DNA of 64,000 nt, taken from Campylobacter lari (GTDB taxonomy: Bacteria > Campylobacterota > Campylobacteria > Campylobacterales > Campylobacteraceae). How positions within the stretch are numbered: the stretch's first letter is position 1; every line of letters begins with the position of its first letter. The stretch spans positions 1 through 64,000 of the forward strand of contig NZ_SMTT01000003.1 of the NCBI RefSeq assembly GCF_004357905.1, in the 5' to 3' direction. The notes beneath the pieces are model-generated. The model was not told the DNA's origin and made no database searches. It saw nothing but the letters and a program-made list of their open reading frames with translations. Shown one piece after another: positions 52,346-56,678 of the stretch. The position numbers and the translations under genes were made by a program.

Positions 52346-52882
52346 ATGAATTTACCCAACATCTTAGCTTTTATAAGGATATTATTAGCTCCACTTTTGT
52401 TTTTTTTACTTATTAATGATTTTGAAAATATCCATCCTAGTTGGGTAGATTATTTTGCTTGTGTTATTTTTAGCATAGCTGCTTTAACTGATTTTTTCGA
52501 TGGCTATATTGCAAGAACTTGGAATCAAACTACTAAACTTGGAGCTATTATAGATCCTTTAGCAGATAAAATGCTTATTCTAGCTGCATTTTTAGGGTTA
52601 TTACTTACGCAAAAAGCTGATCCATGGATGGTTTACATTATCTTAGTAAGAGAATTTTTCATCACCGGCTTTAGAGTGGTTATGGTAAGTGAAAAATTTG
52701 ATGTAAGTGCTTCTTTTGCAGGCAAAATAAAAACAACCTTTCAAATGATAGCTATTATATTTTTAATCATGCAATGGCCTTTTGCCAATACATTGTTATT
52801 TATTGCTTTAGTGCTTACACTTTATTCAGCTTTTGAATACATACTAGCTTATGTAAAACATTTAAAAAAAGGTATAAATTGA
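52346..52882 (+). CDS. pgsA: CDP-diacylglycerol--glycerol-3-phosphate phosphatidyltransferase PgsA
   Basis: First committed step to phosphatidylglycerol. The 178-residue integral membrane enzyme has the CDP-alcohol phosphotransferase motif DFFDGYIARTW followed by LGAIIDPLADK (D-x2-DG-x2-AR...G-x3-D-x3-D) and several membrane helices. GGATTTT near the start gives a plausible ribosome site. The last bases overlap the rseP-like start (TTGA). Confidence 0.95.
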   Translation: MNLPNILAFIRILLAPLLFFLLINDFENIHPSWVDYFACVIFSIAALTDFFDGYIARTWNQTTKLGAIIDPLADKMLILAAFLGLLLTQKADPWMVYIILVREFFITGFRVVMVSEKFDVSASFAGKIKTTFQMIAIIFLIMQWPFANTLLFIALVLTLYSAFEYILAYVKHLKKGIN

Positions 52883-53985
52883 AATCATATTTATTTTTAT
52901 TTATTATCTTAGCTATTGGCTTTAAATTTTATTCTTTTAGTTTTTTAATAACACTTTTAGTGATATCTTTTTTAATTTTTTTTCACGAATTAGGACATTT
53001 TTTAGCTGCAAAACATATGAGAGTTGATGTAGAAATTTTTAGCATAGGTTTTGGAAAAGCTATTTTTAAAAAAACTTACAAAAATACAGAATATCGCTTA
53101 TCCGCCCTACCATTTGGTGGTTATGTTAAGCTTAAAGGACAAGATGATTTAAATCCTAGTGAAAAAAATTATGAGCCAAATAGCTATAACACTTTAAGTC
53201 CTTTAGCTAGAATTTATATACTTTTTGCAGGACCATTTTTTAACTTTTTTCTAGCATTTTTACTTTATATAGCCATAGGTTTTTTAGGAGTTCAAAAACT
53301 TGCGCCTGTTGTTGGAGATATAGCGCCAAACTCAGCTGCACAAAAAGCAAATTTACAAATTGGTGATAAAATCCTAGCTATAGATGGGGTTCAAATTCAA
53401 AGTTTTGAAGAAATTGGCAAACTTGTTCACGCAAAACCAACCCTGCTTGACATAAAACGCGATAATAAATTTATCAATATCACTTTAACACCGCAAATTG
53501 ACCAAGGTTATAATGAGTTTTATCAAAAAGTTCAAAAACCTCTTATTGGTATAGCACCTAAGGGTGAGTTTGTTACTATTTATCACTCAGGAATTAGCAG
53601 TTTGAAATATGCTTATGAAGAAAGCATAAATGCTTCTTTGCTTATTTTCAAAGGTCTTGCTAAAATCATCAGTGGGGAATTAGATGCTAAAAATATGGGT
53701 GGAATCATCACTATGGTGGATATAACCTCCAAAGCAGCAAATACTAGTATAGTAGTTTTATTTTTAATCACAGCTTTAATTTCCATCAATCTTGGAGTAC
53801 TAAATTTACTTCCGATACCAGCACTAGATGGAGGACATATACTTTTTAATCTTTATGAATTAATTTTTAAAAAAGAAGTACCAAAAGTATGTTTTGAATA
53901 TCTTAGTTATTTTGGCATGGCTTTACTTTTAAGCTTAATGGTATTTGTAACTTACAACGACATTACTCGTTTTATAAGCAATTAA
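52879..53985 (+). CDS. rseP: site-2 membrane metalloprotease RseP-like (M50)
   Basis: A 368-residue intramembrane zinc protease: HELGH at residues 36-40 in the first catalytic helix, FGGYVKLKG, one PDZ domain (about 135-185: VGDIAPNSAAQKANLQIGDK) and the third zinc ligand in LLPIPALDGGH. It probably cleaves anti-sigma factors, signal-peptide remnants or other bitopic proteins. The start is TTG at 52879, overlapping pgsA by 4 bases; AAGG lies upstream. Its stop overlaps the convergent outer-membrane gene by 4 bases. Confidence 0.9.
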   Translation: MKSYLFLFIILAIGFKFYSFSFLITLLVISFLIFFHELGHFLAAKHMRVDVEIFSIGFGKAIFKKTYKNTEYRLSALPFGGYVKLKGQDDLNPSEKNYEPNSYNTLSPLARIYILFAGPFFNFFLAFLLYIAIGFLGVQKLAPVVGDIAPNSAAQKANLQIGDKILAIDGVQIQSFEEIGKLVHAKPTLLDIKRDNKFINITLTPQIDQGYNEFYQKVQKPLIGIAPKGEFVTIYHSGISSLKYAYEESINASLLIFKGLAKIISGELDAKNMGGIITMVDITSKAANTSIVVLFLITALISINLGVLNLLPIPALDGGHILFNLYELIFKKEVPKVCFEYLSYFGMALLLSLMVFVTYNDITRFISN

Positions 53986-54812
53986 TAAGTCCTAGTAGCA
54001 AAATCATAGCGATTAAACTCGGCTATACTATTTTTACGATAAAAGCTATTATAAAATTGCTTACTTAAACTTTGTTCATAATTTAGTCTAAACTTAACCC
54101 ACATTGCCGTTTGATCTTTTGCACTTGTTTTTTCATCTTGATAATTAAGTGATAAATCCAAAATAGAAATTGGAGAATAAGTAATGTTATACTGATTTTG
54201 TGTTTCTTTCATGTTAGAATTTACATTTAAAACATTTAAATAAGGTAAATCAAATATAACCCCAAACTCTGTACTATCATCACTATTATTTTCTTTTATA
54301 TCATAATGATTAGCATATGCTTTAAAATATTGACTAAATTGCAATTCAGCACCAAAACTATTTTTTGCATAAGCTTGTTTATATTGATCGTTAAAATAAT
54401 TAAAACCAAAATTGATTTCATCAAATTCATAACGATTAATAATTCCCAAAGAATAAGCTTGCTCTAACTGCCCTATTCTTGCTTGTTTTTCTAAAAGTAA
54501 AGTAGCATTATCATAATCTAAAATTGAGTTGATATTTTTAATATTTACATTTAAAGCGTTATAATCTAAACTAGCTTCTGTTTTATCCTTTGAGCTTAAA
54601 TTTAAAACCTGTGCTAAAGAATTACTAGCAAAAGTACCAAAATCAACATTTTGAGCTTGATACTCCTGCGGTTTTTGAAAAAATACTTGTTTGGAAATTG
54701 CATTTGTTTTTTGTTCTTTAGTTATATTAACATCACCCTCACTTAAGCTTTCTTCTAAATTAGAAGCAAGCACATTTAAACATATACAACTTAAAAAAAT
54801 GTATTTTTTCAT
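53982..54812 (-). CDS. outer-membrane protein resembling a passenger-less inverse-autotransporter barrel
   Basis: A 276-residue secreted protein (signal MKKYIFLSCICLNVLA). From about residue 85 on it looks like the last strands of the intimin/invasin (inverse autotransporter) beta-domain: alternating amphipathic strands, FGFNYFNDQY, GAELQFSQYFKAYANHY (154-170), YSPISILDLSLNYQDEKTS, and the ending LNYEQSLSKQF...RYDFATRTY, close to the family's barrel-to-linker segment. The protein stops where a passenger would begin. AAGAGG precedes the ATG; it starts 11 bases after the cetA-type gene, so they are co-transcribed. Function unknown. Confidence 0.55.
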   Translation of the reverse strand: MKKYIFLSCICLNVLASNLEESLSEGDVNITKEQKTNAISKQVFFQKPQEYQAQNVDFGTFASNSLAQVLNLSSKDKTEASLDYNALNVNIKNINSILDYDNATLLLEKQARIGQLEQAYSLGIINRYEFDEINFGFNYFNDQYKQAYAKNSFGAELQFSQYFKAYANHYDIKENNSDDSTEFGVIFDLPYLNVLNVNSNMKETQNQYNITYSPISILDLSLNYQDEKTSAKDQTAMWVKFRLNYEQSLSKQFYNSFYRKNSIAEFNRYDFATRTY

Positions 54813-54823
54813 TTAACCTCTTA

Positions 54824-56197
54824 TTAAATATGTTTTTTATGCTCTATTTCGCTTATCATTTTTTCATTTATATCTTGAATTTGCTTAATATGTGCATAAA
54901 TTTTTCTTTCCTCTTTGACTATTTGATTGTTTCTTATATAATCAAATAATTTTTCTATATAAGAATTTAAATTTTGATTTAAAACATAAATATTACTTGT
55001 AGAATCAAATTTGGCTAAATTTTTATCTTCTATATCTTCTATTTTGGAATTAATCACACAAGAGCAAGCTAGATATGTTTTTAAGCAACACTCTAAATAA
55101 AGCAATATTTTATTAGTATCAACACTTGTCTTAGAAATCTCATCTAATAAAATTTTAGCTTTTTCATCAACACCGGTAAACACCTCTTGAAATTCTTCTA
55201 AACTTGAGTTAGATTTTTTAGCAACTTTATAAGCTTCATTAGTTATATTTTTAATATTACTCATTTGCTCTATTGATACTTTAATCATCACAGAAATTTC
55301 TTTGGCGGCCTCTTGAGTTTTTTCAGCTAAATGTCTTACCTCATCTGCAACTACCGCAAAACCTCTACCATGCTCTCCTGCACGAGCTGCCTCAATAGCT
55401 GCATTTAATGCTAAAAGATTGGTTTGCTCTGTAATATCTTCTATAATAGATATAAAAGAAGAAACATTATTAATTTGCTGTGAAAAAGTATCCATTAAAG
55501 TATGAATTTGAGTGATATTTTCACCTAAATTTTGCAAATCGACTGAAATTAATTCTGCATTTTTGGCACTTTTTGAAGAATGAGTAGAAATATCATTTGC
55601 CTGCTCATATATATCATGCATAGTGCTTGCATTATCATTTAATTTCACATTAATCAAAGCTAATTCTTTTTGCAAAGAATCTGACATATCCTTAGAAACA
55701 TTTTCAACGACAATACTTCTTATGGATAAATTTTGAGTTTTTTCTATTTCTAAAGTAGCTTCATTAATAATTTTAGCATTATATGCGAAAGTACCCATTA
55801 AGCCTTCTAATCTTGCTTTTCTATAAAATCTTTGTTCTTTTACAGCTAAAATAGCATTAAGAATTTCTCTGTTAAAAGCCTCCATTTGATCAGCTAAATC
55901 ATTCACAACCCAACTTAATTTTCCTACTCCAGATTTTGGAACAGCTATATGAGTAATTCTTGCTTCCAAATTTCCTTTTGTAAGCTCATTTAAAACTTGA
56001 GTAATCCTTAAAACTTCTTTATTTCTATAATAAGCACTAGCAAGCCCAAATAACACCACTAAAGTTCCAATCACACAAAAAATAAAACCAAAAATATTAT
56101 TTTCTACTATTTCCAAGATTGCCATCAAACAAAATAAAAATAAAGCAAAATAATTTACAGATTGATTGATATTATATTGATAAAACCAATTCTTCAT
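54824..56197 (-). CDS. cetA: energy-taxis receptor CetA (Tlp9-like)
   Basis: A 457-residue chemoreceptor without a periplasmic sensor: two membrane helices (about 15-30, 35-55) as a hairpin, a HAMP-like segment (56-110), and the MCP signalling domain with the conserved tip [29 protein letters not shown]. CetA transduces redox state detected by a partner PAS protein to CheA/CheW. The PAS gene lies directly upstream and overlaps it by 26 bases, a split version of Aer. Confidence 0.9.
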
Positions 56198-56678
56198 AAC
56201 TCATCCCTTTTGTATTTAAATAATCATCAAGTTTCTTCCTTGATGCACCTTTTCCACCTTTTTGCTCTTCAATCAAAAGCTCTTTGTATAATTTTTCTAT
56301 TTTTTCAACTGCTTCTTTTTTGGGTTTTAAACGCATAGAATAATACCCAACAACTTCTCCTTTGGAATCAAACGAAGGACTGATAAAAGCCAAAACCCAA
56401 TAAAATGATCCATCTTTTGATAGATTCTTAACATAAGCTATAATCTCTTTTTTACTCTTAAGTCTTTCCCAAAGTAATTCAAAAACAACTTTTGGCATAT
56501 CCGGATGACGCACTATATTATGAGGTTTTCCCAATAATTCTTCCTCACTATAGCCCGAAAGAGAAATAAAGATTCTATTGCAATATATGATTTTTCCTGT
56601 AGTATCTGTTTTGGAAATAATCATTTGTCCGTCATTGAAAAATTTTTGATTATTATTTGGCAAAATTTTTCTTTTCAT
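56172..56678 (-). CDS. cetB: PAS-domain energy sensor (CetB/CetC-type, Aer-like)
   Basis: A 168-residue cytoplasmic protein made mostly of one Aer-type PAS domain: [19 protein letters not shown], then [17 protein letters not shown] and [15 protein letters not shown], the FAD-binding pattern of Aer. It should sense redox through FAD and signal to CetA. A perfect ribosome site AAGGAGGG precedes the ATG. In C. jejuni, as I recall, cetB follows cetA and a second PAS gene (cetC) precedes it; only one PAS gene is here, upstream of the receptor, so it may be the CetC position or a rearranged CetB. Confidence 0.8.

Follow-up and report, generated by a model that had tools for sequence, protein, structure and literature searches.

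Inverse autotransporters (IATs, type Ve; Pfam PF11924), among them intimin, invasin and YeeJ, are defined by the possession of a passenger. They have been described as almost exclusive to the Gammaproteobacteria (PMC6714894). The intimin barrel is plugged at its bottom by a helical turn, its lumen is crossed by a linker that contains the conserved arginine R434, and the short strand that ends this linker (residues 446-449) forms a sheet at the pore mouth together with loops 4 and 5 (PMC13078405). Replacing the linker strand abolished hairpin formation and secretion, and deleting it destabilised the full protein, whereas deletion or replacement of loop 4 or loop 5 had little effect (PMC13078405). 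A variation on this layout is found in the ZirTSU pathway of Salmonella, where the IAT-type barrel ZirT secretes a separate protein, ZirS, that is encoded beside it (PMC2270342). Our search of the open-access literature returned no paper on passenger-less IATs or on IATs in Campylobacter.

The window, a stretch of 64,000 nucleotides from Campylobacter lari (NZ_SMTT01000003.1, positions 1 to 64,000), carries a gene for a barrel of the IAT type that ends without a passenger (Table 1). The features on which a sequence-only reading of this locus had drawn are all present: the segments GAELQFSQYFKAYANHY, LSKQF and the C-terminal RYDFATRTY in the protein, the convergent rseP gene, and a spacing of 11 bp between the cetA-type stop at 54824 and the beginning of the barrel ORF. 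The N-terminus, MKKYIFLSCICLNVLAS, resembles a signal peptide by eye. Co-transcription with the cetA-type gene is plausible from the 11-bp spacing; promoter and terminator scans stayed at chance level, promoter sites being no commoner in a simple scan than in shuffled sequence. The PAS and cetA-type genes themselves share a 26-bp overlap (window positions 54824-56678).

Table 1. Position of the barrel gene, the parts of its product and the adjoining genes in the window.
Feature	Coordinates	Strand	Basis or remark
Passenger-less inverse-autotransporter-type barrel gene	53982..54812	-	276 aa ORF; orthologues and family matches
Signal-peptide-like start, residues 1-17	54762..54812	-	Read by eye; helix in AlphaFold models
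Variable N-terminal segment, periplasmic, residues 18-57	54642..54761	-	Predicted disordered; pLDDT < 50; low conservation
12 predicted beta strands, residues 77-241	54090..54584	-	pLDDT about 73-91 by block; PDB matches invasin/intimin
Helix after last strand, residues 249-257	54042..54068	-	AlphaFold; alignment with full-length IATs
Conserved C-terminal tail FNRYDFATRTY, residues 266-276	53985..54017	-	Corresponds to inner IAT linker; ends before surface strand
cetA-type MCP-signalling gene, upstream of barrel gene	54824..56197	-	Lineage-specific neighbour, not a conserved partner
PAS-domain gene, paired with cetA-type gene	56172..56678	-	
rseP, convergent with barrel gene	52879..53985	+	4-bp overlap with barrel stop

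Sequence comparison assigns the barrel protein to the IAT (type Ve) beta-domain family, as a divergent member. On its own, the window protein has no match to PF11924 (IAT_beta), and phmmer with this single sequence found no IAT. The orthologues are more informative: a genome search placed the orthologous locus above the curated Pfam cut-off for PF11924 in 23 genomes, one of the proteins (G010, 80% identical to the window protein) scoring 27.1 bits against a cut-off of 22.3, and 26/35 orthologues match as single sequences at E <= 0.1 (best 8e-13). The HMM check against the family that the sequence-only reading had proposed is thus positive for the orthologues and negative for the window sequence. 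A profile built from the 35 orthologues (A1) gave E 4e-6 in hhalign against IAT barrels of the same order and E 4e-5 against full-length Campylobacter IATs alone. As negative controls, classical autotransporter barrels gave E 0.29 and MOMP gave E 0.023, the latter aligned over the signal peptide only. The same profile picks up the full-length IATs of three genomes (G000, which contains the window, G023 and G025) at E 1e-4 to 7e-4. When PDB sequences were searched with a profile, no IAT matched; only the fold search gave such a hit. The orthologue matches to PF11924, the controlled profile-profile comparison and the fold search show that the likeness to IAT barrels exceeds chance.

AlphaFold, run with the 35 orthologues, predicts the 12 strands and the following helix of Table 1, and a second run with ten true IAT barrels added returned the same elements with no gain in confidence or TM-scores. 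The top three PDB entries in both fold searches were invasin (4e1t) and intimin (4e1s and 5g26), at E 2e-8 to 5e-7, with the next barrel about three orders of magnitude behind at about 5e-4. TM-scores of the model to intimin and invasin are low, at 0.37-0.45 (rmsd about 9 A), so that the number and order of the strands are supported but closure of the barrel is not. Both models agree with the 12 strands that the sequence-only reading expected, and invasin and intimin are the best PDB matches. The suggestion in that reading that the protein exposes only its loops is weak, as the predicted loops span 2-7 residues and both loop 4 and loop 5 are reduced.

The likeness to IATs extends beyond the predicted strands to the helix after the last of them, the inner linker motif R-Y-x-F/L-x-x-R and conserved residues of the barrel core. 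In the orthologues, the helix region and the inner linker with its conserved arginine are kept after the last strand, and alignment with full-length IATs places the helix where intimin has its alpha-helical plug. All 35 orthologues terminate within the linker at the motif RYDFxxR; in the window protein the linker tail reads NRYDFATRTY and stops a few residues on, before the linker strand. Tyr 269 is invariant (35/35), and arginine occupies position 268 in 30/35 and position 274 in 32/35 orthologues. The tail belongs to the best conserved parts of the protein, and the loops at 173-179 and 228-232 to the least. This common end point agrees with the earlier proposal that the barrel stops where a passenger would begin.

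What the Campylobacter protein lacks in comparison with IATs is the passenger, the surface linker strand and a LysM domain, and two loops are reduced. Measured between the same anchors, loop 4 comes to 11-17 residues in the orthologues and loop 5 to 16, versus 27-31 and 37-38, respectively, in full-length Campylobacter IATs; these are the two largest surface loops of IATs, and loops 2, 3 and 6 are of about the same length in both groups. The linker strand is absent and loops 4 and 5 are short, which means that none of the three elements of the mouth sheet is retained in full. The parallel with intimin is not a simple one, since deletion of its loop 4 or 5 had little effect and deletion of its strand was destabilising. 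As judged from these alignments, the Campylobacter barrel has lost the passenger and the parts of the exit gate, and is probably not a device for secretion but a plugged membrane protein that stands alone.

Of the 49 genomes of the genus, 47 have an orthologue; the 11 further genera of the family that were sampled have none. A scan of named genomes, for which a six-member alignment was used because the alignment of 35 was too divergent, includes C. jejuni subsp. jejuni 414, C. coli, C. volucris and C. bilis among its members, and the barrel is carried by nearly all thermotolerant Campylobacter species, including C. jejuni. The orthologues are under purifying selection, with dN/dS of 0.08-0.15 between the window gene and four close relatives and a median of 0.21 across the lari-type members; the copy of a single genome (G062) is broken. 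Phylogenetic analysis joined the 35 orthologues in a single clade (support 100/99) to which the full-length IATs do not belong, with a long-branch warning between the two groups. These separate clades led us to reject the idea that the gene arose by recent truncation of the IAT in its own genome.

Such a full-length IAT of the window's own genome lies about 10 kb past the window end (G000:C3 about 73567-80697; L101:3568-10698), has 2376 aa and matches both PF11924 and Ig-like domains. Its barrel is of the same family as the window protein, with 51/217 aligned residues identical, but it keeps the loops, the linker strand and the Ig-like passenger and falls in the separate clade. A tract of ten G stands just upstream of its start codon, and tracts of nine or ten G also occur in G011, G023 and G025, which suggests phase-variable expression of the full-length IAT. 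Barrel-only IAT_beta proteins of about 300 aa with no Ig passenger are also present in two other families of the Campylobacterales (L088 and L089); unlike the Campylobacter barrel, these keep the linker strand (IVVER and LIIEK) and longer loops 4 and 5, and they sit on a different branch. Tandem IAT_beta genes of 556 aa were seen at two further loci (L090 and L097), where, by eye, the C-terminal portion resembles repeats of the beta-helix type and not Ig domains.

The surroundings of the barrel gene differ between clades, and no neighbour is conserved as a partner across them. The following gene is convergent and overlaps the stop in 27/35 orthologues; this, with the same end in all orthologues, led us to reject a passenger hidden by a frameshift, in agreement with the sequence-only reading. 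Lari-type genomes have the barrel gene between mnmC and rseP. In four of them (G000, G034, G021 and G066) the PAS/cetA-type pair lies between mnmC and the barrel gene, and in G011 it stands directly upstream of the barrel gene at the point where the contig ends; the adjoining pair is thus intact in 5/49 genomes and decayed in a sixth (G007). The pair is a paralogue, a second and lineage-specific CetA-like pair: the window cetA-type product shares about 34% identity with the other CetA of this genome, which is encoded elsewhere (G000:C1:136809) and in turn shares 55% with the jejuni-type CetA. Jejuni-type genomes have a divergent permease on one side of the barrel gene and a convergent dctA on the other; a PAS-cetA-PAS cluster follows beyond dctA, in many of them about 3 kb from the barrel gene (L021-L023, L028-L031, L036, L039, L041 and L042). 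Divergent and convergent neighbours in most jejuni-type loci imply no operon partner. Outside the adjacent and the 3-kb arrangements, the cet genes are far from the barrel gene.

The proposed tie to motility, in which the protein would be the outer-membrane partner in energy taxis and co-expressed with the cetA-type gene, could draw on the 11-bp spacing in the window and on the cluster that lies across dctA in jejuni-type genomes. It is not supported. The adjoining pair is the paralogue with its narrow distribution, sister genomes have no such pair at the site and show the barrel gene directly after mnmC, and the dctA that intervenes in jejuni-type genomes is on the opposite strand. We therefore give this reading little probability, and the two different cet-type loci near the same barrel family may be a coincidence. 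A larger, though still small, probability goes to a translocator in trans, which would export a passenger encoded by another gene in the manner of ZirT and ZirS. No partner gene was found for the Campylobacter barrel, which has no neighbour conserved across clades and mostly no co-directional operon partner, and a search of the genus for Ig-like Big_1 stretches gave only single, weak hits in five genomes, mostly in large frames that include full-length IATs. ZirT, moreover, is a protein of 72.7 kDa with a long C-terminal region after the barrel (PMC2270342), unlike the Campylobacter protein, from which the linker strand is missing as well.

Low TM-scores and a window sequence with no PF11924 match would also be expected if the protein were a small porin of the ordinary kind, or some other outer-membrane barrel, that resembles IATs only in a generic way. 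This is improbable in view of the curated matches among orthologues, the specific linker motif that ends the protein and the negative controls with two other barrel families. The same protein might be regarded as the decaying remnant of a full-length IAT, given its absent passenger and the broken copy in G062. That account has next to no probability: the clade is separate from the full-length IATs of the same genomes, and the open frame is conserved across the genus, intact in nearly all species and with dN/dS well below 1.

We consider it likely that the barrel protein is a plugged stand-alone outer-membrane protein that descends from an IAT beta-domain and no longer secretes. From its family and predicted fold, it would be expected to pass through Sec and to be inserted into the outer membrane by BAM, forming a barrel of 12 strands. 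The alignment suggests that after strand 12 the helix and the short conserved RYDFxxR tail would re-enter and plug the lumen in an intimin-like manner, the chain stopping immediately short of the surface-reaching linker strand. Lacking this strand, and with loops 4 and 5 reduced, the protein could not build the extracellular sheet tied to hairpin formation as intimin does; having neither such a mouth sheet nor a passenger, it most likely secretes nothing of its own. It is probably a closed small outer-membrane protein with a role in the envelope or at the surface, maintained by selection across the genus.

Because DctA is Cj1192, the C. jejuni orthologue is, from gene order, probably Cj1193c. 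The identity of DctA as Cj1192 is published (PMC4178425), and Cj1193c is listed as hypothetical, with its protein detected by proteomics (PMC4004267). A hypothetical protein of C. jejuni, probably this one, is thereby given a testable identity. The barrel alone is a near-core gene in a major enteric group that had gone unnoticed as such in the open-access papers searched, and it offers a natural test of which barrel parts serve secretion and which serve folding. It is doubtful that the stripped barrel has been reused across the genus as a regulated channel or as a translocator of cargo in trans; if that were true, it would represent a new subclass of type V outer-membrane protein.
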